From contig PXYT01000025.1 of NCBI GenBank assembly GCA_003023725.1, positions 1 to 46,865 on the forward strand: DNA of 46,865 nt, written 5' to 3'. The first letter of the stretch is position 1, and the number at the start of each line of letters is the position of its first letter. Of this stretch, positions 2,333 through 23,542 are shown piece after piece. Source of the stretch: Sulfobacillus benefaciens (GTDB taxonomy: Bacteria > Bacillota > Sulfobacillia > Sulfobacillales > Sulfobacillaceae). Below the pieces are notes generated by a model, which saw only the letters and a list, made by a program, of their open reading frames with translations, was not told where the DNA came from and made no database searches. Position numbers and translations under genes: made by a program.

Positions 2333-3193
2333 CTACCGATTTACGGGAGTCATGGGGGAAGAGGGCTCGCGGTCATCCACCCGTCCGGCTACGGACACCA
2401 CAAAATACCGTTGAGTAAAGAGAAATACAATAATAATTGGCGTAAGCGTCAGAAGTGACGCCGCCGCCAGTTCACGCCAGTGGGTTCCGTCAAACCCTTG
2501 GAAATAAGACAAGGCGACTTCAATGGGACGGGCGGCCTGGCCCTGAGTGATAATCAAAGGCCACTGGAACTGGCTCCACTGCGACGAGAATGTCAAGAGC
2601 GACACCGTTGCCACGGCCGGTTTGGACAAGGGCAAGGCCATATTCCAGAGATAGCGCCACCATGAGGCCCCGTCCAGTTGCGCCGCGTCCCACAATTCCT
2701 TGGGCAGCGTTTTAAAGAACTGCCGAAAAATGAAAATGGCAAAGACATTGACCGCAAACGGCAACACCTGGCCACGCAGCGAGTTCAAAATGTGCAAATG
2801 ATAGGCCACAACATAGTCGGGAATGAGAATGGCCTCGGGAGGCACCATTAAGGCCGCGAGAAATATCCCGAAAATTATTTCCCGGCCCCGAAAAGTGGGC
2901 AAACTTAACGCATAGCCGGCGCTCGCCCCGGTTATCAGCACCAAAAGAATGGTGCTGCCGGTAATGATGACCGAGTGTAGAAAATATAAACCCCAGGGAG
3001 CTGCCTGAAATACCCGTTCCCAAGGGTGGAAGTCCCATCCTGGCACCAAATCCGGAGGCAAGGTGAAAACCCGGGATTTTGGTGCCACACTGAGCACAAT
3101 TGCCCAGTAAAACGGAAACAAGAAGATCAGCGCCACACCTGCCTGAAGCACGGTGCGCAACACCCGCCGGTCTTGATGCTGTCCTAACCGCAT
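2333..3193 (-). CDS. ABC sugar transporter permease, MalG/UgpE type
   Basis: This 286-residue protein has six predicted membrane helices and the cytoplasmic EAA loop, seen as KELWDAAQLDGASWW followed by ALP (about residues 167-190), where the ATPase docks. It belongs to the binding-protein-dependent transport family CUT1, whose members import di-/oligosaccharides or glycerophosphodiesters. A clear GGAGG lies upstream of the ATG at 3193. It is the third gene of an operon (binding protein, MalF-type permease, this gene) with gaps of 11 and 48 nt. No ATPase gene is adjacent, so the pair must borrow a shared MsmX/UgpC-like ATPase from elsewhere; that is inference from what is common in Bacillota. 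Confidence 0.92.
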   Translation of the reverse strand: MRLGQHQDRRVLRTVLQAGVALIFLFPFYWAIVLSVAPKSRVFTLPPDLVPGWDFHPWERVFQAAPWGLYFLHSVIITGSTILLVLITGASAGYALSLPTFRGREIIFGIFLAALMVPPEAILIPDYVVAYHLHILNSLRGQVLPFAVNVFAIFIFRQFFKTLPKELWDAAQLDGASWWRYLWNMALPLSKPAVATVSLLTFSSQWSQFQWPLIITQGQAARPIEVALSYFQGFDGTHWRELAAASLLTLTPIIIVFLFTQRYFVVSVAGRVDDREPSSPMTPVNR

Positions 3194-3241
3194 GGCCCTT
3201 TCCTCCCCGTATTCGTGAATTGCGACAGCCGCACAATGCCG

Positions 3242-4225
3242 TTATTGGTAAGAGGTATACCTCTCGCCGACCTGTTTTTGCACAATGGTCATTAGCAGCA
3301 GCAAGGCGAACAACACCACAGAGACAGCCGCTCCGTATCCATAGTGGAAGAAGATAAAGGCAGATTTGTAGAGATAAATCGCGGTCGTCGTGGTCGAATT
3401 CAAAGGCCCGCCCCCGCCGCCAAACTGTCCGCCGGTCATCGCGTAAATGGATCCAAAGGCCTGCATGGCTTGGATCGTGGTTAAGATGACAACCATCAGC
3501 GTTACCGGCGACAGGTAAGGCAGGATCACATAGCGAAACGTTTGCCATCCGTTGGCCCCGTCCAGCCAGGCCGCCTCTACCGCGTCGCCGGGGATATTCG
3601 ACAAACCCGCCAGAAAGAGAACCACGGTAAATCCGAGGTTGTGCCACAGATTATTAATCATCACCGCCGGCAAAGCCCACGTCGAACTCACCAGCCAGCC
3701 GAGAGCGGGAAGGTGAAATAGCCTCAAGACAGCATTGGCCAGACCGAATTGCGGATTAAAAATAAACACCCAGATAATTGATGTGGCGATGGCCGGTGTG
3801 ATATAAGGGAGAAATACGGCCGCCCGCGTAAACGTCACCCAGGGAGTGGGCTTGTGGGCCCCTCCCCGGAAGAGCCAGGCAATGCCCAGTCCCAGGGCAA
3901 TTGTCATGGGCACCATGATCCCCACATAATAAAACGTGACGCTTAGAGACTCAAGAAATCCCGAAACAGGATTAAAAAGTTCCCGGTAGTGCAAAGCCCC
4001 CACCCACTGAGAGTCCTGAAACCCTCCCAAACTCCAGTGATAAAAACTCATGGCCACGACCAGCAAGGCCGGGCCGTAGGTAAAAAGCGTTAAAATCGCC
4101 AGGGCGGGCAAGACCAAAAGCCACCCGGTAGCCCCTTTCCTGGTCCGGATCAAGGTGCGTGCCACGGCCTTGGAACGGGTCAATGAGGCGGGCCTGTCCC
4201 ACGTAGGGTTCAAGTTTTCTTGCAT
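3242..4225 (-). CDS. ABC sugar transporter permease, MalF/UgpA type
   Basis: A 327-residue integral membrane protein with a roughly 30-residue cytoplasmic lead followed by six predicted helices. The EAA loop is visible as GDAVEAAWLDGANGW followed by ILP (about residues 209-232). It pairs with the MalG-type permease downstream to form the heterodimeric channel for the substrate delivered by the upstream lipoprotein. The ATG at 4225 is preceded by AAAGGAGG with ideal spacing. The substrate cannot be named from sequence; glycerol-3-phosphate or an oligosaccharide are typical of the family. Confidence 0.92.
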   Translation of the reverse strand: MQENLNPTWDRPASLTRSKAVARTLIRTRKGATGWLLVLPALAILTLFTYGPALLVVAMSFYHWSLGGFQDSQWVGALHYRELFNPVSGFLESLSVTFYYVGIMVPMTIALGLGIAWLFRGGAHKPTPWVTFTRAAVFLPYITPAIATSIIWVFIFNPQFGLANAVLRLFHLPALGWLVSSTWALPAVMINNLWHNLGFTVVLFLAGLSNIPGDAVEAAWLDGANGWQTFRYVILPYLSPVTLMVVILTTIQAMQAFGSIYAMTGGQFGGGGGPLNSTTTTAIYLYKSAFIFFHYGYGAAVSVVLFALLLLMTIVQKQVGERYTSYQ

Positions 4226-4236
4226 ATGGGCCTCCT

Positions 4237-5571
4237 TTACTGAACTGCCGCACCCGATAAATACGCCGTGGCCTGTTTTTGCATATTGCTCAAGGCCTGA
4301 CTGACCGTCTCTTTGTGTTGCACCACACTCTGGATTTGGTTTTGTATCACGGTATCGATCTCACTTTGATTGGGACCGATGATTTTATGAATCACATGAC
4401 CGCTTTCGAGTTCCCGAATCGCCACCGCCGTTCCGGCGTATGGTCCCGGATTCGCGGAAAACTGGCTTCCGGCCATTTTCTCGACACTGGCAACATCAGC
4501 CTGGCTCATGGGAGGCTCCCCGCCCACTGTCGACCAGATAGCTTGACCTTGGGGAGAATCAAAATATTTGATGAAAGACCAGGCCGCCTGTTGCTGTGCG
4601 GTGGAGGCATGCTTGAAAATCACGAAACTCAGCCCCTGATAAAGATAGTCGGAATGACCCGTAGATCCCGGCGGAGGAGAAAACACGCCCACGGGGAATT
4701 TGCCGCCGACTTGTTCCCGAACCATCTCATAGCCGTCGGCCGTATTTTCCAAAATGCCCAGCTTGCCCGAAGCAAAGTCCTCGAAGCTGGTGTTATAAGA
4801 AAGAATTTTCGTATACGGCGCATTGTCCCGCGCTGTCACTTGCCGTATCGTCTGCGCCATCGCAGGCGAATTCAAATCGAGCTGTCCCGGATGCCCGGGC
4901 TTGTAATAGTGGCCGCCGTTGGAGTAAAACAGCGGCAGCCAGTCGTTGTGGTCCAGCCGCGCCCCCAGTCCGATAGCCCCTGTCTTACTCTGAATTTGCT
5001 GGGCATCTGCCATCAACTGACTCCAGGTCGTGGGAGGCGTGCTCAGCCCGGCCTTTTTCCACAGGGTCGCATTATAGAAGAATTCGGCCACTTTGATATC
5101 CACAGGAAACAGATATTGCTGGTGTGAGGGCGTAAATTCCGCCTGCCACACCGCCGGCCATATCTGGTGCAGCTGCTGGGACGGAAATCCGTTGGGCCCA
5201 TTGATAAACGGCTTTAAATTGACGAGCGCGTTAGCCTGTTCATATCCGTATTGCGGTTGATGGCCGATCATGGCCATAATCGGAGGGTCGCCGGCCTGTA
5301 CGGCCGCCAGGGCTTTGGCCGACGCCGGGGTCACATGCACTTCCACCTTGATGCCGGGATGGCTTTGGTTGAACTTGCTGACAACCTGCGCCAATGCTTG
5401 CCCCTGTTGGTTGGCGGCACTGTGGGATTCCCAAAATGTCACGATGGTTTTCCCATTGGAGTGCGCAGGGCTATTGTGAGTAGCCGCCGCGGCAGTTGTC
5501 CCGCAACCGGCCAGAGTGGCTCCACTGACTAAGGCCAAAGCAAACAGACTCTTGCGGTTCTTGTTCTTCAT
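4237..5571 (-). CDS. ABC sugar transporter substrate-binding lipoprotein (SBP family 1)
   Basis: This 444-residue extracytoplasmic binding protein starts with a basic lead, a hydrophobic stretch and the lipobox LAGC with Cys23 as the lipidated residue. The mature part opens with a strand motif VTFWESHS typical of the MalE/UgpB cluster, and later shows WSFIKYFDSPQGQAIW, a common hinge-region signature of the family. A longer frame begins 23 codons upstream, but ATG 5571 is favoured because it gives a proper lipoprotein signal and has AGGAGAT upstream. It is the first gene of the three-gene importer operon. Confidence 0.92.
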   Translation of the reverse strand: MKNKNRKSLFALALVSGATLAGCGTTAAAATHNSPAHSNGKTIVTFWESHSAANQQGQALAQVVSKFNQSHPGIKVEVHVTPASAKALAAVQAGDPPIMAMIGHQPQYGYEQANALVNLKPFINGPNGFPSQQLHQIWPAVWQAEFTPSHQQYLFPVDIKVAEFFYNATLWKKAGLSTPPTTWSQLMADAQQIQSKTGAIGLGARLDHNDWLPLFYSNGGHYYKPGHPGQLDLNSPAMAQTIRQVTARDNAPYTKILSYNTSFEDFASGKLGILENTADGYEMVREQVGGKFPVGVFSPPPGSTGHSDYLYQGLSFVIFKHASTAQQQAAWSFIKYFDSPQGQAIWSTVGGEPPMSQADVASVEKMAGSQFSANPGPYAGTAVAIRELESGHVIHKIIGPNQSEIDTVIQNQIQSVVQHKETVSQALSNMQKQATAYLSGAAVQ

Positions 5572-5654
5572 GGTTAAGGTGTCATCTCCTTGGCTGGTTA
5601 AATCACGGCATGGCCGTGTCCGGTACGCGTACTCCTTCACACTAAGTTGCCGGT

Positions 5655-6278: not shown

Positions 6279-7409
6279 CTACGGTGACAAACCGGTATCC
6301 TTGTAACCCTCAATGACGGCGGAGACCACATAATCCGTCAAAGAGGCGCCTGGGACCCATTGGCGGATAAATTCCCGGCTTCCTGCCTGCGGTTTTATGG
6401 AGACTCTGTTAAAGCCCACTCCCTGCATGATGGCGGTGAGTTCGTCAATGCCTGCTGCCCCTGCCATGCAATTGGTCCACAAAGACAATTCCCGGCGCCA
6501 TTCCTCCGGAATATCGGCTGTCGCCACAACGTCGGAAATGGCAAGCCAGCCACCCGGTTTCAGCACACGGAATGCTTCCCGAAAGACCTGCCGTTTATTC
6601 GAGGACAAGTTAATGACACAATTCGATATAATCACGTCAACAGACTGGTCTGCAAGGGGAAGATGTTCGATTTCTCCCAACTGGAATTCCACGTTGAAAA
6701 ATCCTCCGCGTCTGGCATTCTGCTCCGCGCGGGCAATCATTGCCGGAGTCATGTCGACACCGATAACCCGCCCCTTGTCACCCACCCGTTTCGAGGCCAG
6801 AAAACAGTCCAACCCGCCGCCACTGCCCAGGTCCAGCACCGTTTGTCCGGGCTCGATCCGGGCTATGGCCAGCGGGTTTCCGCACCCTAAACCTAAATTG
6901 GCTTCTTCTGGCACCTCAGCTAGTTCGGAGCCTGTATATCCCAGATACACCGATACCATAGACGGGTCAAATTCCTGCGCACCGGATCCGCACCCGCATC
7001 CTTTCCCCGTTTCGGCGATTTGTCCGTAACGGTTCTTAATGGCCTCCTGGCGTTCTATACCGGTAATCATGGGAAGTTCTTGCTTGAGTTCGCCGGAAAG
7101 CCCCGAAAGATGGGGAGATGCTTTCCCGCTTTCGATATCCCCCATCTCACACTGGTTCATCCAGTCGCGGACAGCCTCCACATCGATAAGCGATCCGTAA
7201 AGGTGGACCATGACACCGCCCTCACCATCCTCGACCGTCACATCGTCAATGCCCGTCAGAATAGGTCCATTGGAGAGGACATTCCCACTCCCCGCAGCCG
7301 ATTCCCGAACCAGCCGTTCAATAAATGCCACGGGAAATCCGGGTTCAAGCCGAATGCGCACACCGGATGGTTCGGGTTCCAGCCGGCCAATCTCCGACCA
7401 TTTTGCCAC
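6279..7409 (-). CDS. arsM: Arsenite S-adenosylmethionine methyltransferase with N-terminal extension
   Basis: This 376-residue enzyme is predicted to methylate As(III) with SAM. The SAM-binding motif VLDLGSGGG is at residues 191-199 with GVDMT after it. Cysteines expected in ArsM are visible: C138/C140 (GCGCGSG), C176 (GLGCGNP), C264 (ISNCVIN) and C314 (TNCMAG). Residues 1 to about 95 form an extra segment not usual in ArsM and not recognised by me. The open frame extends to a TTG at 7454, but GTG 7409 is preferred because AAGGGG sits 8 nt before it. It follows arsR, and an ArsR-like palindrome lies between them, so arsenic-responsive control is likely. Confidence 0.88.
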   Translation of the reverse strand: MAKWSEIGRLEPEPSGVRIRLEPGFPVAFIERLVRESAAGSGNVLSNGPILTGIDDVTVEDGEGGVMVHLYGSLIDVEAVRDWMNQCEMGDIESGKASPHLSGLSGELKQELPMITGIERQEAIKNRYGQIAETGKGCGCGSGAQEFDPSMVSVYLGYTGSELAEVPEEANLGLGCGNPLAIARIEPGQTVLDLGSGGGLDCFLASKRVGDKGRVIGVDMTPAMIARAEQNARRGGFFNVEFQLGEIEHLPLADQSVDVIISNCVINLSSNKRQVFREAFRVLKPGGWLAISDVVATADIPEEWRRELSLWTNCMAGAAGIDELTAIMQGVGFNRVSIKPQAGSREFIRQWVPGASLTDYVVSAVIEGYKDTGLSP

Positions 7410-12649: not shown

Positions 12650-13837
12650 TTAACGTCCCTGCCGCACCACCGATGTGACCACGCGTCCTCGAGTGAGTAC
12701 GGACTTCACATCGGGCACTTCGCCCTTGAGGGTGCCGACTACCAGCAAATCCGCCTCCTTTCCCACTTCAATAGAACCTTTGTCCCCTGCAATGCCCAAA
12801 GCCCTGGCCGGATTCAAGGACACCATATTGACGGCGCAGGACATCTCCAATCCCGTTCGCACCAGCGCAAACACGCTGTGCAGCAACGAAGGCGGGTAAT
12901 AATCGGAACATAAGATGTCGACCGCGCCGGCTTCAATAGCCTCCTGTGCCGACAGATTGCCGGTGGTGGACGCCCCGTTGAGAACATTGGGAGCTCCCAT
13001 GACGACGTAAAATCCCCGTTTTTTGGCCTCTTGCGCCACGTCCAGGGAGATGGGGAACTCACAGATGCGTCCGTGCCAGCCCTCTAAAAGATCAAGACGC
13101 TCGACCGTGTCGTCATCATGCGACGCTAAGGGAATGCCGGCGGCGCGGGCATGGCCCGCCAGTTCCTCAAGGACGTCCCATTCGACTTTGGCGTGCTGCA
13201 TCCGGCTCTCCAATAAGTTGTCTGCTTCCTCACGGGAGAGATGGCGGTGGGACACCAAAAAATGGCGAAACTGTTCAATGTCCCGGTACTGTCCTTGACC
13301 GGGGGTATGATCATTAAACGACAGCTCATCAATCCATCCGGACTGAATAACTTCGCGCACATATGGCACCGCATACAAATTGGCTACCTCAAAGCGCAAA
13401 TGAATCCGGTGAGTGAGCAAACGGTCCGACTCCCGGGCAAAAGCTCTCAGATGGTTGAGAATATCCCGGACCATCTCCGTTTGCCTCATCCAGCGCAGAG
13501 AGTCCCAATCGGCAAGAGACAGGGCATGGTAAATGGTGGTAATGCCCGACCCAATGAGCTTGCGCTCCAGCTCATGCATCGCCACGTCATAAGGCAGGCG
13601 GGAGGTGGGGCGCGGCGCCAGTTCCGCTTCGATGGCGTCGCTGTGCATATCGATAATCCCCGGCATAATCCAGCAATTCTGGGCGTTGATGACTGTCTCC
13701 GCCAAACGGGCGGGGTGCGGCAACGGGCTGGTTGCAATCGCTGCAATCCGCCCGTTTTCAACAAACACGGATCCGCGAGGAATCAGAGTACCGGGGGTCA
13801 CTACCGTGCCATTGTGGATGAGAAGGTTCTTCGTCAT
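12650..13837 (-). CDS. phnM: Alpha-D-ribose 1-methylphosphonate 5-triphosphate diphosphatase
   Basis: This 395-residue amidohydrolase removes pyrophosphate from the ribose triphosphate phosphonate intermediate in the C-P lyase pathway. Metal-binding motifs are visible: MPGIIDMHSDAIE near residue 60, FNDHTPGQGQ, LASHDDDT and LCSDYYPPSLL (the last with the catalytic Asp). Length matches E. coli PhnM. The start ATG overlaps the phnL stop by 4 nt (ATGA). It is the last gene of phnGHIJKLM; no phnN, phnO or phnP follows. Confidence 0.96.
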   Translation of the reverse strand: MTKNLLIHNGTVVTPGTLIPRGSVFVENGRIAAIATSPLPHPARLAETVINAQNCWIMPGIIDMHSDAIEAELAPRPTSRLPYDVAMHELERKLIGSGITTIYHALSLADWDSLRWMRQTEMVRDILNHLRAFARESDRLLTHRIHLRFEVANLYAVPYVREVIQSGWIDELSFNDHTPGQGQYRDIEQFRHFLVSHRHLSREEADNLLESRMQHAKVEWDVLEELAGHARAAGIPLASHDDDTVERLDLLEGWHGRICEFPISLDVAQEAKKRGFYVVMGAPNVLNGASTTGNLSAQEAIEAGAVDILCSDYYPPSLLHSVFALVRTGLEMSCAVNMVSLNPARALGIAGDKGSIEVGKEADLLVVGTLKGEVPDVKSVLTRGRVVTSVVRQGR

Positions 13838-14541
13838 ATAGGCTTCATCTCCTCCCGTTTTTCCGGCCGGGTCAAATTCAGCTGACTGTCTTTAAGTTGC
13901 GTCGCGAGCCGGTTGTCGTGAAAAATACTGAGCATGGTGGTGCCACGGTCTTTCAAATCACTCAGAATTTCCATCACCACTCCGGCACTCCGGGCATCAA
14001 GAGCCGACGTGGGTTCGTCAAGCAGTAATAGTCGCGGCGAGGTAATCAGCGCACGCGCCAAATTTATGCGTTGCTTTTCTCCGCCGCTGAAAGTCTGAGG
14101 ATACGCGTCCCATAGATGCGAAGGGATGCCCAAACGCTCCAGCCATTCCGATGCCTGCGCACGGGCTTCGCTGGAACTCTCTCCGAGCAATAAAAGCGGT
14201 TCCGCCACCACATCTATAGCGGGCACACGCGGAATCACATGCAGAAACTGGGATACCATCCGAACTTCCTGCCGGCGCAGGCGAAGAATTTCCCTTTCGG
14301 ACAGGCCAGCCAGGTCGATGCGCCCATACTCACGCGACTGGTACCAAATGCGTCCTGTAGTCGGACGATAGGAACGGTAAATGCACTTGAGCAAGGATGA
14401 CTTGCCGCCGCCGCTGGGTCCCGATATATTAAGGCATGTGCCTTGTTCCACCGAAAACGACACATTGCCCAGGGCTGTCACCGTAATGTTCCGATGAAGG
14501 GCCAACTGAAATGTTTTCGTCAATGACTCCACGTTCAGCAC
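13834..14541 (-). CDS. phnL: C-P lyase system ABC-type ATPase PhnL
   Basis: A 235-residue ABC ATPase. Walker A is GPSGGGKSS, the signature is FSGGEKQR, Walker B is LLLLDEPTSALD, and the switch His is in SIFHDN. PhnL is associated with the C-P lyase core and not with a membrane transporter. GTG 14541 is chosen because GAGGAGG precedes it; the longer frame to 14604 adds residues unlike the family. It begins 25 nt after the phnK stop and overlaps phnM at its end. Confidence 0.95.
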   Translation of the reverse strand: MLNVESLTKTFQLALHRNITVTALGNVSFSVEQGTCLNISGPSGGGKSSLLKCIYRSYRPTTGRIWYQSREYGRIDLAGLSEREILRLRRQEVRMVSQFLHVIPRVPAIDVVAEPLLLLGESSSEARAQASEWLERLGIPSHLWDAYPQTFSGGEKQRINLARALITSPRLLLLDEPTSALDARSAGVVMEILSDLKDRGTTMLSIFHDNRLATQLKDSQLNLTRPEKREEMKPI

Positions 14542-14566
14542 TCTAGTCCTCCTCGCAATATCCGCC

Positions 14567-15412
14567 TTACAATAACGAATGAACCAGCATCTGAGTGAAA
14601 GCATGCTGGGGATCCTGAAGAATTTGATCGGTCAGCCCCTGTTCAATAATGTGTCCGTCTCTCATGACTACCGTCCGGTCGGTCAAAAGGCGGATCACTC
14701 CGAGGTCGTGGGACACCACGATCATTCCAATCTGCCACTCCCTTTGAATTTTCCGGATCAGGTCCAGAACCCTGGCCTGAACCGACAAATCGAGTCCGCT
14801 GGTAATTTCGTCAAGCAACAGCAAAGGTGGATGATTGGCCAGGGCTCTGGCTATTTGTACCCGTTGCTGCATACCGCCGCTAAAAGTCTTAGGTGCTTCA
14901 TGGATGCGCGCCAGGGGAATTTCCATCACATCCAGAAGGTTTGTGGCGCGCTTTTGGATTGAACCCACATGAAACCAATTAGCGGCAATCAGTTTTTCCG
15001 CCACGTTGCCGCTGCTGGAAAACGCCATGCGCAATCCCATCAGCGGATTTTGATAGACCATCCCCATGAAGCGATTGCGGATAGCCCGGCGGTCTTGGCT
15101 CGATGCCTCGAAGATGTTGCGGGTTCCCTGTTGATAGGGATAAAGGCGGGCACTGCCTTGGGTAGGCATTTCGTCAAAATAGAGACAGCGTAGAAGAGAA
15201 CTCTTTCCGGAACCGCTCTCGCCCACAATTCCCAGAATTTCTCCGTTAAAGACTTCAAGATCGATCCCACGGCAACCCCACACGCTCCCGCAATACGGAC
15301 ACCGCCTGTCCGCTGCTCCATCCCTCTCGCAACGAGAACAGCCGGCTCCGTATCGCTTTCCTAAATTTTCCACCCGTAGCAAGGGCTCCTCCTGAGATCC
15401 CGGATTGATCAT
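14567..15412 (-). CDS. phnK: C-P lyase system ABC-type ATPase PhnK with a cysteine-rich insertion
   Basis: A 281-residue ABC ATPase that in E. coli docks on the PhnGHIJ core and drives catalysis. Walker A is GESGSGKS (64-71), the signature is FSGGMQQR, Walker B is LLLLDEITSGLD, and the switch His is in VVSHDLG. Between the first strand and Walker A are Cys25, Cys28, Cys38, Cys41 and Cys47 (GCSRCERDG then CPYCGS), a zinc-ribbon-like insertion absent from the E. coli protein. The start ATG overlaps the phnJ stop (ATGA at 15409-15412). Confidence 0.95.
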   Translation of the reverse strand: MINPGSQEEPLLRVENLGKRYGAGCSRCERDGAADRRCPYCGSVWGCRGIDLEVFNGEILGIVGESGSGKSSLLRCLYFDEMPTQGSARLYPYQQGTRNIFEASSQDRRAIRNRFMGMVYQNPLMGLRMAFSSSGNVAEKLIAANWFHVGSIQKRATNLLDVMEIPLARIHEAPKTFSGGMQQRVQIARALANHPPLLLLDEITSGLDLSVQARVLDLIRKIQREWQIGMIVVSHDLGVIRLLTDRTVVMRDGHIIEQGLTDQILQDPQHAFTQMLVHSLL

Positions 15413-16257
15413 ATGTCTCCCTTTCCGATTTCGGTTTGCCTTTTGCGGCAATAGGCGGTATCCGAACATTGATAGATTCGTTCTTGGATCTTGGCATCCC
15501 AGAGTTCATCCAGGTAAGCCTCACGGCTGCCGCACAATCTGCAAGCCGACAGGAATTTTTCGGTTTCAAATCCGTAATCCTCAAATGCCACCGGTTCTAC
15601 GTCAGTGTAGGGGGGAATAGCGTAGATTTTGCGCTCCCTCCCAGCACCCAAGAGTGTCAGAAAGGGTGCCTGGTGCAATTTGGGCAAATCCCAGCGTGGA
15701 ATGGGCGTCGGCTTTATCATGTACCGGTGATGAACGACAGCGGGATAATCGGCCCCGGTGGTAATCTGTCCAAAACGGACAATGTCCTCATACAATCCCA
15801 GCCATACGGCGCTATAGTCCCTTTCCGCATGCATCCGCCGGGTTTGGGCTTCTCTGGGCTCCACATGTCGCAGAGGTTCGGGTTGCGGAACCTGCAGAAT
15901 GAGAATCTGCCCCGGCCTCAGAGGATCATCCGGAATACGGTGGCGGGACTGAATAATGGTGGCCTGATCGGTCACGTCCGTGGTCTCGATATGGGTCGTG
16001 GCTACTACCAGATTACGGATACTGACAGCGTTGACGCTGTCGTCATGCCCTTGATCAATCACCTTGAGCCGGTCCGTGGGGCCAATCAAAGACAGAGTCA
16101 GCTGCAGTCCGCCGGTACCCCATCCTCTGGCAATCGGCAGTTCCCGTGAACCAAAGGGCACTTGAAAGCCAGGTATCGCCACCGCCTTGAGAATAGCGCG
16201 GCGGATCTCCCGTTTCGATCCTTCATCAAGATAGGCAAAATTATACGGACTTGTCAC
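15409..16257 (-). CDS. phnJ: C-P lyase radical SAM enzyme PhnJ
   Basis: This 282-residue enzyme cleaves the carbon-phosphorus bond of 5-phosphoribosyl 1-phosphonates. The unusual radical-SAM cluster motif CX2CX21C is complete: C239, C242 and C264. C270 corresponds to the E. coli thiyl-radical Cys272, and G30 in AIPGFQVPF to the glycyl radical position. The GWGTGG loop (residues 45-50) is also present. All catalytic residues I can check are intact, so the operon looks functional. The start is GTG, overlapping the phnI stop as GTGA, with GGGAGG upstream. Confidence 0.98.
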   Translation of the reverse strand: MTSPYNFAYLDEGSKREIRRAILKAVAIPGFQVPFGSRELPIARGWGTGGLQLTLSLIGPTDRLKVIDQGHDDSVNAVSIRNLVVATTHIETTDVTDQATIIQSRHRIPDDPLRPGQILILQVPQPEPLRHVEPREAQTRRMHAERDYSAVWLGLYEDIVRFGQITTGADYPAVVHHRYMIKPTPIPRWDLPKLHQAPFLTLLGAGRERKIYAIPPYTDVEPVAFEDYGFETEKFLSACRLCGSREAYLDELWDAKIQERIYQCSDTAYCRKRQTEIGKGDI

Positions 16258-17369
16258 CGAATTCCCTCCCTAGAGCCAGTGTCCGGCGTCTGCCGGACGG
16301 TCCTCAGGCGGTCCAGTTCCGACTGGAAGGTGACATAATGAGGCAGTTTCAAATGGGATATAAATCCTGCCGATTCAATGCTGTCAATATGACTTAACAC
16401 ATATTCCTCGTCATGAACGGGTTCGGTGCCGGACACCACATCGAGGGCGCGATCCAAAACGGACATGGCAATACTTTTGACCTCATTCTGACCAAATGAC
16501 ACTCCATATCCCAAGACCAGCTGCACAGGCTCACCCGGCTCAGTGCCGGCAAAGCCGTTAATCGCCTCCACCTCCGTGATCAACAGTTCGCCGGCGTACA
16601 CGCTCTCGCCGTTCTCCAAGGGATAGGGAAGAATAAGCGCACAGTACCCCACCCGCAATTCCCCGATTGTGGGGTGAACCGCCCCATACCCGCGCAAGCT
16701 GCTGTAAGCCAAGGCCACCATGGCCCCCGTCTCCCCCCGGGCCATGGTTTGCAGGCGGGCGGAGCGGGGAGCGGGAAAAGGGAGTTTAAACCGCGTAATG
16801 TCGAAAGGCTCCTCTTCACCTGCACCGGGATGGGGAGGCGCCATCAATCCTTCTTCGCGCAGGAAATCGGACACTCGGGGAAAGAGTGCCGGCTCTTGGT
16901 CCTCTTCGGCGGAGTAGCGGTCCTCCACCCGTTTTAGCACCTGCGCAATCGCCTCGGGAGGCTCATCCAGGAGGTCAAATTGCAACAAGCGGTGAGCATA
17001 GTCGAAGGTCGGGCCTAGAATCTGGCCCCCGGGAATATCGCGAAAGGCCGACGAAATCCGGCGAATAAGCCGCATGCCCTGAGTGTCCAAGGGCAAGGAG
17101 ACATGATTTCGGGGCACGGTCGACCGGTACGCCCGCAACAAAAACGCCGCTTCATAGACGTCTCCTTGAGCCTGTTTCAGGGCGAGAGCGGCATGTTTAG
17201 GGGCGTAGAATCCCGCCTCACTCATGACGCGATCCACCAAAAAACGCATCTGAGACGGCAACATGCCGACGTCCAGCGAACCCGGCGCATGCCGAAGCCG
17301 ATAATAGCCCGTCAGTTCCGAACTGGCTAGGATCGCTTTCTGACCGCCTTTGACGGCAACATACCCCAT
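16254..17369 (-). CDS. phnI: C-P lyase core subunit PhnI
   Basis: A 371-residue protein, close to the length of E. coli PhnI. PhnI with PhnG, PhnH and PhnL attaches the phosphonate to ribose by displacing adenine from ATP. It begins MGYVAVKGGQKAI and contains RHAPGSLDVGMLPSQMRFLV, both typical. The reading frame extends 23 codons further upstream, but ATG 17369 has GGGAGG 9 nt before it and matches the family N-terminus. It starts 4 nt after the phnH stop. Confidence 0.96.
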   Translation of the reverse strand: MGYVAVKGGQKAILASSELTGYYRLRHAPGSLDVGMLPSQMRFLVDRVMSEAGFYAPKHAALALKQAQGDVYEAAFLLRAYRSTVPRNHVSLPLDTQGMRLIRRISSAFRDIPGGQILGPTFDYAHRLLQFDLLDEPPEAIAQVLKRVEDRYSAEEDQEPALFPRVSDFLREEGLMAPPHPGAGEEEPFDITRFKLPFPAPRSARLQTMARGETGAMVALAYSSLRGYGAVHPTIGELRVGYCALILPYPLENGESVYAGELLITEVEAINGFAGTEPGEPVQLVLGYGVSFGQNEVKSIAMSVLDRALDVVSGTEPVHDEEYVLSHIDSIESAGFISHLKLPHYVTFQSELDRLRTVRQTPDTGSREGIR

Positions 17370-17373
17370 GCTA

Positions 17374-18030
17374 TTAAACCTCCCGTGTGCCTTGATGCAG
17401 TGTGGTGTGACGCGGAACGCCAACAAGATGTCCTTCATGGTCCACTAAGAGAAAGTCGGTGCCCATAGGAAAATCCCGGACCATCTCCTCCCGCCTCCTG
17501 ATCCAATCCTCTTCCAAACCAGACACCGCCACCAACCGTGTACCGGGTATTCCGGGTCCACTCATTCTCCAAAGGCGTGTTGCGATCCGGGAAAGTTCGG
17601 GACAATCCGTGGGTTCCACGGCTTGAACCCGGCTTACTAAAATCGTGATCAAAGCACCCTGGCCGGGATTCAGAAGTTCTCCGGCAAAGAGGGGGGACAA
17701 AAATCTCCGAATTTCCTGGGCATCGGTCGGTTCCTGGATAAATACGTATTCGGCGGGACTTCCCGGTTCGGCGGCCTTGGCCCATGTGAGGGTTTGCAAG
17801 GCGGCCGCCAAAGCCTGTTGTCCGCTCCCCCCGGTAGCGAAGGTCACCTGGCGATCCAACAGCGTCAAGGCAATGGATGCCAAGGGAGGGGAAACGAACG
17901 GGCTTGGATCCGGGGGTGACCAGGGCGGAATCGCCACGACACGTCCCGGTTCCGACATCGCGGCCAGCAGCTGCCGGAATACGTTCTGGGTATGATACAC
18001 TCCATCAGAGCTCTCATCGAGGTTTGTCAT
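17374..18030 (-). CDS. phnH: C-P lyase core subunit PhnH
   Basis: A 218-residue subunit that dimerises in the PhnGHIJ core complex. The family N-terminus is recognisable as HTQNVFRQLLAAMSEPGRV, and a Pro-rich stretch with RTRLV-like GTRLVAVSG and GTDFLLVD occurs in the C-terminal half. ATG 18030 has GGGGAG upstream and overlaps the end of phnG by 17 nt, which argues for translational coupling. A 24-codon upstream extension of the frame is rejected. Confidence 0.94.
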   Translation of the reverse strand: MTNLDESSDGVYHTQNVFRQLLAAMSEPGRVVAIPPWSPPDPSPFVSPPLASIALTLLDRQVTFATGGSGQQALAAALQTLTWAKAAEPGSPAEYVFIQEPTDAQEIRRFLSPLFAGELLNPGQGALITILVSRVQAVEPTDCPELSRIATRLWRMSGPGIPGTRLVAVSGLEEDWIRRREEMVRDFPMGTDFLLVDHEGHLVGVPRHTTLHQGTREV

Positions 18031-18451
18031 ATTCACTCCCCGTCTCGAACCGGACTCGCGTTTGGGATACCGCGGCAAATTCCTCACGATGGCGCCGGAC
18101 AAGCTCTGCCTCCGCTTCCTTTAACCGAGTCACCCAGTATTCGGTGGGAAGAGTCCCTTTGTTCCATGCAGCATCCACAACAGCCAGCCGGTAGGCCTTT
18201 TCCGTGTCGTCTCCCAAAACCGCGCCGAATCCCAGGACGTTATCAATTGCCACCGTACATTCACTAATGAGAATTTCTCCCAGAAAAAAGGGGACACGCT
18301 GCACCGCATCCAAAGCCTTAGCCATCACACACCCATTGGAACTCTGCCTATGAATGCGCACGGGCACCTTATTCTCGACATAGTGACACAGGCTGATCAG
18401 CAAATCCCCTTCGTCTTCCACTAGAATCCGAGTCCTCTGCCGTCTATTCAT
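18014..18451 (-). CDS. phnG: C-P lyase core subunit PhnG
   Basis: A 145-residue subunit, first gene of the phn operon. Typical features are MNRRQRTRILVE at the start, VRIHRQSSNGCVMAKALDA in place of the usual MVRARDS-like segment, and FFLGEILISEC (usually FyLGEvlvte), followed by GDDTEKAYRLAVVDAAW. ATG 18451 has GGAGGA 9 nt upstream. The upstream leader is long and contains a hairpin conserved in a second, decayed copy of this region at 26.8-27.0 kb. Confidence 0.92.
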   Translation of the reverse strand: MNRRQRTRILVEDEGDLLISLCHYVENKVPVRIHRQSSNGCVMAKALDAVQRVPFFLGEILISECTVAIDNVLGFGAVLGDDTEKAYRLAVVDAAWNKGTLPTEYWVTRLKEAEAELVRRHREEFAAVSQTRVRFETGSEYDKPR

Positions 18452-18492
18452 AGGAAATGCTCCTCCCCCGAAATTCGCCCCTCCCGTCTTCC

Positions 18493-18705
18493 CCGTGAAG
18501 AAGTCCGGCCCCAGGGCGGAGAGGACCCGGTGTTCTCTCGGCCCTGTCGAAATGGATGGTTCACCAAACAACGTACCCCTCCCCCATGAACTTCCCGGGA
18601 TCTTTTTGTTAGAGTTGGATTAACGGATGGTGCATCTCCGGCGCCCTGGGTTGACGCGCCGCAGCGGATCGTTCGGGATATTGACGTTCCGGCCAAACTG
18701 CCATA
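18493..18705 (-). repeat. phn leader and promoter region, copy 1
   Basis: This stretch upstream of phnG resembles 26803-27008 over about 210 bp by eye. Conserved blocks include a region with TTATCCAACTCTAACAAAAA or close to it (near 18607-18630), TTCATG, TTGTTTGGTGAA, the hairpin of the next entry and CCGGACTTCTTCACGGG. It probably holds the phn promoter. TTAATC-N5-CTAACA (minus strand) weakly resembles a PhoP-type box, but I do not rely on it. Confidence 0.7.
18512..18546 (-). ncRNA. Candidate structured leader RNA of the phn operon
   Basis: On the minus strand CAGGGC-C-GAGAG pairs with CTCTC-C-GCCCTG (11 pairs, one C-C mismatch) around the loop AACACCGGGTC, about 60 nt before the phnG start. 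The decayed second copy at 26825-26853 has the same loop and a different but still paired stem, including a G-C to T-A double change. The hairpin is directly visible; a regulatory role is inference. Confidence 0.5.
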
Positions 18706-19251: not shown

Positions 19252-20475
19252 TTAAAACCAAATGCCCTCCATTGCCAAATGCCGGGTGAAATCCACAGTA
19301 TTTGAGAATACGTGTCCATGCATACCCAGATTTTCGGCCACAGTAACATTGGCGGCCTTGTCATCAACAAACAGAATATTCTCCGGCTCAACAGCTATTT
19401 TGTGAAGCAGATGTTGAAAAATCCGTGGGTCAGGCTTCCGCATCCGAACGCGATAGGAGTTGATCACAAATTCGAAGAGATCCCACACACCGAAGTATTG
19501 AATTTCGTCGTCCCACCCATTTCCGACTTCGACCGAAATGTGGGGAAACTCGGAGATAATCGCACGGGCATATTCAACCACCTCCTGAACGAGATCCCAA
19601 AAACGCATCGGCTTAAGGAGTGTTGGAGAAAAATTGGATGCCTGCTCCATAATGAGCAAGTCGGATACCAAACTTTTCATTTTGGAAATGGTCGTGTCGA
19701 CCACCCTTAAAGCCGTCCTGCCTTGGGACGTCGTTAAACCATCACGCTGAAGAACGCTCAGATTCCCTTGAATCACCGTCAACAAGGTTCGCAGGTGATG
19801 GGTCACATCGGCAAGCTGTGCCCGCTCTCGCTTCTGCCCTTCTCGCAGGTCTGAGAGTAGCCGGTTGATTAAAACCGACAAATCGTAAAATTCGTCGCCG
19901 GAGTTCGGAATCGGCAACGACTCGCTTATCCCCGCATTAAGCATATGTTCTGCGGACGAGATCATTGAACGCACCGGTTTCAATGTGTTTTGCACGAACG
20001 CCCCGGCCGCTGTTCGAATTATCAGAGTTCCCGCGGCAGATCCAATAATCAAAACGGCCAGCAAAAGTGTCGCCAGGAAATCGTAGTCATTCAACGGAAC
20101 GTCGATCACTAAAGTCCGCTCCCGGTGGGAGGTGACGAATTGGTAAGCGTTAAGTGCCGGAAAGAATCCCACTGTGACACGTCTTGGCGGGTCACAGGCA
20201 GCATTGGGCGATTTCAACACCACGTGCTCCGCTTGCATCACCCAAATACGGGCTTCGTCGGGCCGATTGTAGACGTGAAGCGCCGCAGCCAACCCGCCTC
20301 CGTAATCGGTGCCAATGACGGCCAAAGTGTGTTGGGCATGCAAGCGAATGTCGTGGTACATATGCCACAGCGCCGTGCCCAGAGTGGCTAAAGAAAACAC
20401 CACTAATGTTGTGGCGGCAACCTTGGTAATTTGACGCATAAAGACGTGAAAAGCACGAGATGCACCCTGCGTCAT
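19252..20475 (-). CDS. Chimeric sensor: histidine kinase N-terminal part fused to a HAD C-terminal domain
   Basis: This 407-residue protein starts like a normal membrane sensor kinase: helix one (about 13-40), an extracytoplasmic domain (41-133), helix two (134-158), HAMP (160-217) and the dimerisation/phosphoacceptor helix with DVTHHLRTLL, H226 being the probable phosphoacceptor. No N, G1 or G2 boxes of an ATPase domain follow. After about residue 319 the sequence becomes the C-terminal half of a HAD-IA hydrolase: motif II region VINSYRV (S340), motif III K347 in RKPDPRIF, motif IV FVDDKAANV (D371, D372). The HAD nucleophile motif is absent. The frame is open throughout. The ATG overlaps the regulator stop (TAATG). 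It most likely arose by a deletion joining neighbouring genes; it cannot autophosphorylate in the usual way. Confidence 0.88.
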   Translation of the reverse strand: MTQGASRAFHVFMRQITKVAATTLVVFSLATLGTALWHMYHDIRLHAQHTLAVIGTDYGGGLAAALHVYNRPDEARIWVMQAEHVVLKSPNAACDPPRRVTVGFFPALNAYQFVTSHRERTLVIDVPLNDYDFLATLLLAVLIIGSAAGTLIIRTAAGAFVQNTLKPVRSMISSAEHMLNAGISESLPIPNSGDEFYDLSVLINRLLSDLREGQKRERAQLADVTHHLRTLLTVIQGNLSVLQRDGLTTSQGRTALRVVDTTISKMKSLVSDLLIMEQASNFSPTLLKPMRFWDLVQEVVEYARAIISEFPHISVEVGNGWDDEIQYFGVWDLFEFVINSYRVRMRKPDPRIFQHLLHKIAVEPENILFVDDKAANVTVAENLGMHGHVFSNTVDFTRHLAMEGIWF

Positions 20476-21158
20476 TAATCCACCAACTTCAGGGTATAGC
20501 CCATTCCCCGGACGGTGGCAAGTTCGGCGTCTGTGTCGTTCCACGGTATTTTTTGACGCAAATACCGGACATAAACATCGACCACGGCCGTTGATCCGCC
20601 AAACCCCCATCCCCATACGTGGTCGAGAATCATGTCTCGTGTCAGGACAATGCCAAGATTCTCCATGAGATATCGCAATAGAGCAAATTCACGGATACTC
20701 AGCTCGACAGGCTGTCCCCAAACCATTACCTGGTGTCGTGATGCGGAGAGTTGAATTTTTCCCGCAAAGAGCCAATCCCCTGAACTGCCTGACATCCTGC
20801 GGCTGCGCCTGATCAACGCGCGCATGCGGGCGAGCACTTCCGTAATAGAAAAGGGTTTTACCAAGTAATCATCGGCACCGGCATCAAGACCCAGCACTCT
20901 ATCTGTCAACTCGTCGCGTGCGGATAATATAAGGATAGGGACATCCGATTGACGGCGCATCATCCAGCACAGCGCGAGCCCATCAATGTCCGGCAACATT
21001 AAGTCCAACAAGACCATCGCTGCCGAATGGGATCGAAGAACCCGCAAGCCGGCGTCTCCGTCTCGGCACCAGTTGATCTGCCAATCTTCGCGAGCCAGCT
21101 CCTGGATAAGCAGTTGGCCAATCTGCGGGTCGTCCTCGATAAGCAAGGCAACCGGCAT
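20475..21158 (-). CDS. OmpR/PhoB-family response regulator
   Basis: A 227-residue two-domain regulator. The receiver has the acidic pair E8-D9-D10, phosphoacceptor D52 in LLDLMLPDIDG, and Lys about 101 in LVKPF. The C-terminal winged helix contains LSIREFALLRYLMEN and VDVYVRYLRQKI, typical of the OmpR class, followed by TVRGMGYTL. ATG 21158 has GAGGGGG at good spacing. It is co-transcribed with the chimeric kinase. Tandem 11-bp repeats upstream of the divergent PHS transporter are the sort of site this class binds, suggesting a phosphate-linked role. Confidence 0.94.
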   Translation of the reverse strand: MPVALLIEDDPQIGQLLIQELAREDWQINWCRDGDAGLRVLRSHSAAMVLLDLMLPDIDGLALCWMMRRQSDVPILILSARDELTDRVLGLDAGADDYLVKPFSITEVLARMRALIRRSRRMSGSSGDWLFAGKIQLSASRHQVMVWGQPVELSIREFALLRYLMENLGIVLTRDMILDHVWGWGFGGSTAVVDVYVRYLRQKIPWNDTDAELATVRGMGYTLKLVD

Positions 21159-22102: not shown

Positions 22103-23542
22103 ATGGATCAGGGATCATCAGGAAATACCCGTGATCGCCTTTTGAAACCGCTGGAGGATACAGGGCTGCAAAAATTTCACTTTCGCACCTGGCTCACAGC
22201 AGGCATGGGTTTTTTCACGGACGCCTATGACTTGTTCATTATCGGCGTTGTGACCACACTTTTAGCCCCATTATGGCATCTGAGCACGTTAGATCTGATG
22301 TTACTCAACAGTTCTGCACTGTTTGCTGCGGTGCTAGGAGCCTTGATTTTTGGACGCTTAATGGACAAGTTGGGCCGAAAAGCTATTTATGGTCTGGAAG
22401 CCGCACTGCTGACTTTAGGGGCCCTCTTGTCCGCATTTTCCGTCAACTTCTGGATGCTGCTGATTTTGCGATTTATTGTCGGAATGGGAGTTGGCGGCGA
22501 TTACCCGATGAGCGGGATTATCATGAGTGAATACTCCAATCGGAAGAACCGCGGATTTTTGGTCAATTCCGTCTTTGCCATGCAAGGATTTGGCTTATTG
22601 GTTGGTCCGCTCGTCGCCATCATTCTGCTCTCCAGCGGCATGCCGGATATGGTGGCATGGCGGGTTATGCTGGGATTAGGCGCCATTCCCGCGGCCGTGG
22701 TCATCTATCTGCGACGCAAAATTTCCGAAACCCCGCACTTCACCCTCGGAGTACGCGGAGATGTCAAGGAAACGGCTCAGATTGTGCAGCACTTAACCGG
22801 AAAACCCGTGGCGGCTACAGAGCCCAATGTCTCCAAACTATCCAGTTCCCCCAAGGTGTTGTTCAGCGACAAACGGCTCTTCGTGACACTTATTGGCACC
22901 GCCTTTTCATGGATGTTCTTGGACATGGCATTTTACGGCAACAGTGTGTCTTCCGGGCTGGTCATGAAAGCATTGCAGCCGCATGGCACCTTGATCTCCC
23001 ACACGCTGACCTCCTTTTGGATATTTCTGGCGGCGGCGGTACCGGGGTATTGGATCTCGGCACTCACTGTAGACAAGTTAGGACGCCGGTTTATTCAAAT
23101 TATGGGATTCGTGGTGATGGCCCTGGCCTATGGACTACTATGGCTTGACCCTGGGATTACCTCGGTTCCAATTGACTTTCTTTTGGTTTATGCGGTTAGC
23201 TACTTCTTCATCGAGTTTGGTCCCAACTGCACCACCTTTGTGTTTCCTTCCGAGGTGTTTCCTGTAACGGTACGCGGCATGGGTTTCGGCATTTCTGCCT
23301 CTCTCGGCAAATTTGGGGCGGCGATCGCGGCTTTCTTGTTTCCCCTGCTGCTGATCCAGTTGAAACTGCCCGGCACGATGGGACTGTTGGCGGGTATTTC
23401 TCTGCTGGGAGCCGTCTTAACGATGATCGTCTTACCAGAACCCAAAGGCTTGACGTTGCGGCAAGCCTCCCAAGAACAGATATTAGAAGACTCTGGTCAG
23501 TCTTCGTCAAGTCAGGAGAAGTTGAGGCCGTCTCACTCTTAA
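22103..23542 (+). CDS. MFS transporter, PHS (phosphate:H+ symporter) family
   Basis: A 479-residue protein with twelve predicted helices. It carries GMGFFTDAYDLF in the first helix and GMGVGGDYPMSGIIMSEY in helix four/loop, matching the PHS-family signature closely, as well as GRLMDKLGRK between helices two and three. It is predicted to import phosphate (or a related anion) with protons. ATG 22103 has GGGAGGG at good spacing. It is divergent from the two-component system and followed by a small membrane gene. It is a paralogue of 8503-9906 and the more canonical of the two. Confidence 0.92.
   Translation: MDQGSSGNTRDRLLKPLEDTGLQKFHFRTWLTAGMGFFTDAYDLFIIGVVTTLLAPLWHLSTLDLMLLNSSALFAAVLGALIFGRLMDKLGRKAIYGLEAALLTLGALLSAFSVNFWMLLILRFIVGMGVGGDYPMSGIIMSEYSNRKNRGFLVNSVFAMQGFGLLVGPLVAIILLSSGMPDMVAWRVMLGLGAIPAAVVIYLRRKISETPHFTLGVRGDVKETAQIVQHLTGKPVAATEPNVSKLSSSPKVLFSDKRLFVTLIGTAFSWMFLDMAFYGNSVSSGLVMKALQPHGTLISHTLTSFWIFLAAAVPGYWISALTVDKLGRRFIQIMGFVVMALAYGLLWLDPGITSVPIDFLLVYAVSYFFIEFGPNCTTFVFPSEVFPVTVRGMGFGISASLGKFGAAIAAFLFPLLLIQLKLPGTMGLLAGISLLGAVLTMIVLPEPKGLTLRQASQEQILEDSGQSSSSQEKLRPSHS

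Follow-up and report, generated by a model that had tools for sequence, protein, structure and literature searches.

Two-component systems of the OmpR family whose kinases carry a BaeS/PhoR-like HisKA domain combine a membrane sensor, a HAMP-like linker, a phospho-acceptor histidine followed by an acidic residue and an ATPase (HATPase_c, or CA) domain with an overlapping upstream regulator gene. According to PMC3510030, the phosphatase residue of the DHp domain is a threonine or asparagine, and the acidic residue beside it is required for kinase activity only. The same source reports that in EnvZ and NtrB the DHp domain alone suffices for phosphatase activity, with a constitutive phosphatase phenotype in vivo, and that the CA domain strongly raises this activity. 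Hydrolases of the HAD-IA type, such as the epoxide hydrolase N-terminal-like and YihX-like proteins, possess a nucleophile motif I, a cap, motif II, a motif III lysine and a motif IV Asp-Asp pair. Finally, spontaneous bacterial deletions have been verified at direct repeats of 8 bp or more (PMC3411829).

Here, we analysed a stretch of 46,865 nucleotides from Sulfobacillus benefaciens (contig PXYT01000025.1; hereafter, the window), in which a single gene joins parts of a kinase and of a HAD hydrolase. The encoded chimera shares with the OmpR-family systems the membrane sensor, the HAMP-like linker, H226 and the overlap with the upstream regulator gene but, unlike them, has no HATPase_c domain and carries a histidine in place of the acidic residue (HHLRT). 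From the HAD-IA hydrolases it has retained the motif III lysine and the motif IV aspartates, whereas motif I, the cap and motif II are absent. Like the EnvZ and NtrB fragments described in PMC3510030, it possesses a DHp domain without an ATPase domain and keeps the phosphatase threonine; however, those fragments were engineered, whereas the chimera is a product of natural deletion, with a HAD remnant attached and an activity that is putative. The join itself resembles the deletions compiled in PMC3411829, in that kilobases of DNA are missing and a direct repeat marks the endpoints, although its 5-bp repeat is shorter than the verified ones (at least 8 bp).

Features of the chimeric locus and its surroundings (window coordinates)
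Feature	Position	Strand	Basis or remark
Chimeric CDS, 407 aa	19252..20475	(-)	Start codon shares one base with regulator stop
Kinase-derived part, residues 1-326 (TM sensor, HAMP, HisKA, start of ATPase linker)	19498..20475	(-)	
HAMP-like region, residues 161-212	19840..19995	(-)	Pfam PF00672, below curated cut-off
HisKA (DHp) domain, residues 218-278, with H226 and T230	19642..19824	(-)	Pfam PF00512, E 2.2e-10
Deletion junction, 5-bp direct repeat TTCAA	19498..19502	(-)	Comparison with L042
HAD-derived tail, residues 327-407, motif III K347, motif IV D371-D372	19255..19497	(-)	
OmpR/PhoB-type response regulator, intact, D52	20475..21158	(-)	Pfam Response_reg, Trans_reg_C
ABC importer, two permeases and solute-binding protein	2333..5640	(-)	Homologues beside orthologous pair in five relatives

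The reading frame is open across its whole length, and the kinase front reported in the preliminary description (sensor, HAMP, phospho-acceptor H226) is indeed present, with a significant HisKA match and a sub-threshold HAMP match (19.6 bits, E 0.0012, against a cut-off of 25). The DHp domain is whole, and the phosphatase threonine T230 stands four residues past H226 in the local sequence T-H-H-L-R-T. In an alignment of the clade (window 19786-19800), most kinases likewise carry HHLRT or HQLRT rather than HELRT, with L034 and L040 keeping HE; thus, the clade generally lacks the acidic residue reported as necessary for autokinase activity. Beyond the DHp domain, a Pfam search of the chimera returned no HATPase_c match at E<=1, the same domain scoring E 1.8e-18 in the intact orthologue of a congener (G014), and HAD profiles match residues 322-386 instead (E 1e-7), so that the ATPase domain has been replaced by the C-terminal end of a HAD-IA protein, as had been proposed. 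The idea that residues 280-330 hide a degenerate ATPase domain was discarded, since its residues align, in intact kinases, with a normal DHp end followed by the first part of the ATPase domain. The HAD nucleophile is missing, in line with the earlier reading: the motif I aspartate, found within FDIGG in the intact protein, was removed together with HAD residues 1-117. Motifs II to IV had been thought to persist; III (K347) and IV (D371/D372) do, but the Ser/Thr of motif II was lost too, the LSNSD strand lying ahead of the join in the intact proteins of L042 and L045. An AlphaFold model built on a 29-row alignment gave pLDDT values below 50 across residues 276-344, a pTM of 0.35 and a strand-helix remnant at residues 350-390 (pLDDT roughly 65-79), values consistent with a HAD tail that does not form a domain. 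Next door, the response regulator is intact, as previously noted, and 85% identical to that of the congener (dN/dS 0.13).

The state of the locus before the join is preserved in two places. Contig DAHWKJ010000016.1 (L042), which belongs to a Sulfobacillus sp. MAG and is identical to G008:C84, carries the kinase gene from residue 282 onwards, with a complete ATPase domain, and a complete HAD gene 6.2 kb away. The congener G014 encodes an intact kinase of 443 aa and an intact HAD protein of 209 aa, the two being separated by about 6.1 kb of the same contig. Gene order is common to the two, at a DNA identity of about 82%, and the kinase part of the chimera is 76% identical in amino acids to the intact kinase of the congener. 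Bases 1-136 of L042 agree with the kinase side of the window at 134 of 136 positions (98.5%); on the HAD side, agreement extends to 250 of 251 positions (99.6%) over bases 6331-6581. The pentamer TTCAA occurs in L042 at 132-136, within the kinase gene, and at 6331-6335, within the HAD gene, but in a single copy at the join in the window; from this spacing, 6,199 bp are missing. The last kinase residue is Q326 and the first HAD residue Y327, which moves the junction from the neighbourhood of residue 319, where it was first placed, to residues 325-326. When breakpoint pairs were drawn at random from the two genes by simulation, 0.6% of them had a match of at least 5 bp; the frames had a 1-in-3 chance of matching. 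Given the undeleted alleles and the repeat at the join, an origin of the chimera by a single deletion, as the preliminary description had suggested, appears close to proven on comparative sequence grounds. The HAD gene does lie downstream of the kinase gene; it is, however, not the next gene, five others occupying the roughly 6.2 kb between them.

The strain from which L042 derives is not certain, since the contig was binned with another genus. In that MAG, C84 and positions 1-508 of C26 are 97-99.6% identical to the genome of the window, and were probably mis-binned from a close strain, recent transfer being the other option. We also considered whether L042 starts 136 bp before the join as a branch of a 141-mer assembly graph, but the number of bases does not fit, differing by several. 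At its other end, homology with the window ceases at the HAD stop codon, and L042 6582-6733 has a 97% identical copy in the genome of the window (G000:C137 5291-5441), next to which lies a transposase-like ORF; a third, partial copy is found on contig C41 of that genome (3141-3191). This is most simply read as an insertion element located immediately after the HAD gene in the strain behind L042; it accounts for the apparent second breakpoint at the HAD stop and leaves the join in the window untouched.

Between the breakpoints, L042 encodes the kinase ATPase domain, then five genes, then the N-terminal HAD segment, which bears motifs I and II. The five specify an SBP_bac_8 lipoprotein, a 265-aa membrane protein, a 96-aa protein, a 589-aa ABC ATPase with two domains (a fused EcfA-type protein) and CbiQ/EcfT; together they suggest an ECF-type importer supplemented by a binding protein. 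The membrane protein (L042 2087-2881) belongs to no clear family, with a weak ABC_cobalt match, its L042-lineage and congener copies sharing 95% identity (dN/dS 0.04); it was found only in G014 and the G008 contig, being absent from the genome of the window and from 31 other genomes of the family. A DNA search of the missing 6.2 kb against the same assembly, which is 98.4% complete, returned a single 77-bp match of 74% identity, and relocation of the lost genes was rejected, just remote ABC ATPases of at most 39% identity being present. As a whole ECF-type transporter operon went with the kinase and HAD segments, the event was an operon loss more than a shuffling of domains.

No second case of the fused form was found among 154 genomes of the class. 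The window was the sole full-length match in a protein search of the family genomes, where the other relatives match either the kinase or the HAD part and show the intact two-gene or the kinase-only state. Kinase and HAD are separate genes in the congener, the arrangement that the preliminary description had proposed looking for in related genomes, and in these genomes the fusion is common to no relative. Our literature search likewise yielded no natural kinase-HAD fusion.

In five relatives, the orthologous kinase sits no more than a few kb from an ABC importer, whose binding protein is 35-37% identical to the deleted one. Compared with the importer that survives in the window, the permeases of these relatives are 44-50% and the binding protein 34-37% identical. 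Because homologues of this importer adjoin the orthologous pair in all five, solute uptake is the probable target of the intact regulator-kinase pair, and a portion of its presumed regulon may survive in the window, where the importer lies about 14 kb from the chimera. A C-P lyase (phn) operon is found directly downstream of the chimera (12650-18571), and an MFS gene resembling phosphate:H+ symporters occupies 22103-23542. Contig C125 encodes a kinase paralogue and, with it, a 51%-identical regulator; cross-talk with the pair in the window is conceivable but speculative.

What the chimera does can be anticipated from its domain content. As comparison with the undeleted alleles shows, a recent 6,199-bp deletion between the two TTCAA copies took the ATPase domain, the solute-binding lipoprotein, the ECF-type transporter and the first 117 HAD-IA residues; the frame stayed open by chance, leaving a kinase-HAD chimera encoded. 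Without an ATP-binding domain, the protein should form no phospho-histidine, and autokinase activity is expected to be absent; the neighbouring regulator would then be deprived of its own phosphate donor, as anticipated earlier. Without a nucleophile and motif II, the HAD part should be unable to hydrolyse phosphate esters. With both activities gone, the allele is most likely a loss-of-function remnant, and we hold it highly probable that the chimera is just that, left by a recent deletion. Should the protein be produced in stable form, the sole activity it could still have is DHp-mediated dephosphorylation of the adjacent regulator, which would keep that regulator off.

Over the 387 bp common to the window and L042 there are three differences, at residues 304, 312 and 362, all non-synonymous but too few to show relaxed constraint. 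Both parent genes are under purifying selection, judging from dN/dS values of 0.08-0.21, and the parts of the chimera give 0.13-0.20 against the congener, values that mostly predate the deletion. Nothing in these comparisons shows selection on the fused form.

The best-surviving alternative is that the chimera has been kept as a partner that is controlled by its sensor and active as a phosphatase only, so that the regulator stays unphosphorylated, the HAD tail acting as a stabilising cap. The chimera has an intact sensor, HAMP region and complete DHp domain, T230 included, the regulator is intact too, and the open frame leaves room for a kept function; homologues of the regulator-linked transporter persist in the window; and the parent clade already lacks the acidic residue that, in the HisKA proteins tested, kinase activity requires and phosphatase activity does not. 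The prediction of a regulator locked off draws, by analogy, on this complete DHp domain and on the DHp-only phosphatases of EnvZ and NtrB in PMC3510030. Yet the same source credits the CA domain with greatly boosting phosphatase activity in known cases, the chimera occurs in one genome only, its presumed adjacent target operon has been lost, and the tail is an incomplete domain behind a junction region of very low AlphaFold confidence, in an allele too young to make selection visible. We therefore regard retention for this role as unlikely. The fuller version, in which the deletion turned a bifunctional kinase into a signal-gated membrane phosphatase holding the regulator off, with the HAD cap as a novelty and the allele being kept, strikes us as somewhat less likely again. 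Of the two partner roles put forward in the preliminary description, the phosphatase-like one is thus possible through the chimera's own DHp domain, as in the EnvZ and NtrB fragments, and not through the HAD remnant; the ligand-sensing one found no support. A dead remnant is more likely than a regulator locked off.

Far less probable is an assembly artefact, in which a chimeric read or an erroneous join of mixed-sample data produced the junction and the strain itself has the operon intact. A close relative does carry the undeleted allele. However, a 5-bp overlap is far too short to drive an assembler join, which makes an artefact unlikely; the window contains no Ns, the contig runs on for 19 kb and 26 kb on either side, and the missing DNA is on no other contig of an assembly that is 98% complete. 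An ancestral or purposeful fusion, interrupted by insertion of the operon in relatives, has nothing but the open frame in its favour and is ruled out for practical purposes by the intact orthologues, since both the kinase and the HAD protein are whole in two lineages, with conservation running across the breakpoint, and an insertion could not have supplied an ATPase domain and a HAD N-terminus in register.

Collectively, these results capture, at base resolution, a short-repeat deletion that cost its bearer a transporter operon and welded what remained of a sensor kinase onto an unrelated enzyme's C-terminal end, with the before-state at hand in a near-identical contig. The case is a warning that an open frame and two domain matches are no proof of a functional multidomain protein, and the chimera is not a new kind of signalling protein. 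It is a deletion allele of a single genome, ordinary in kind and a recent gene loss, for which the evidence before and after the event is unusually clean. At the same time, the locus offers a natural test case of whether loss of the ATPase domain leaves a phosphatase-locked regulator.
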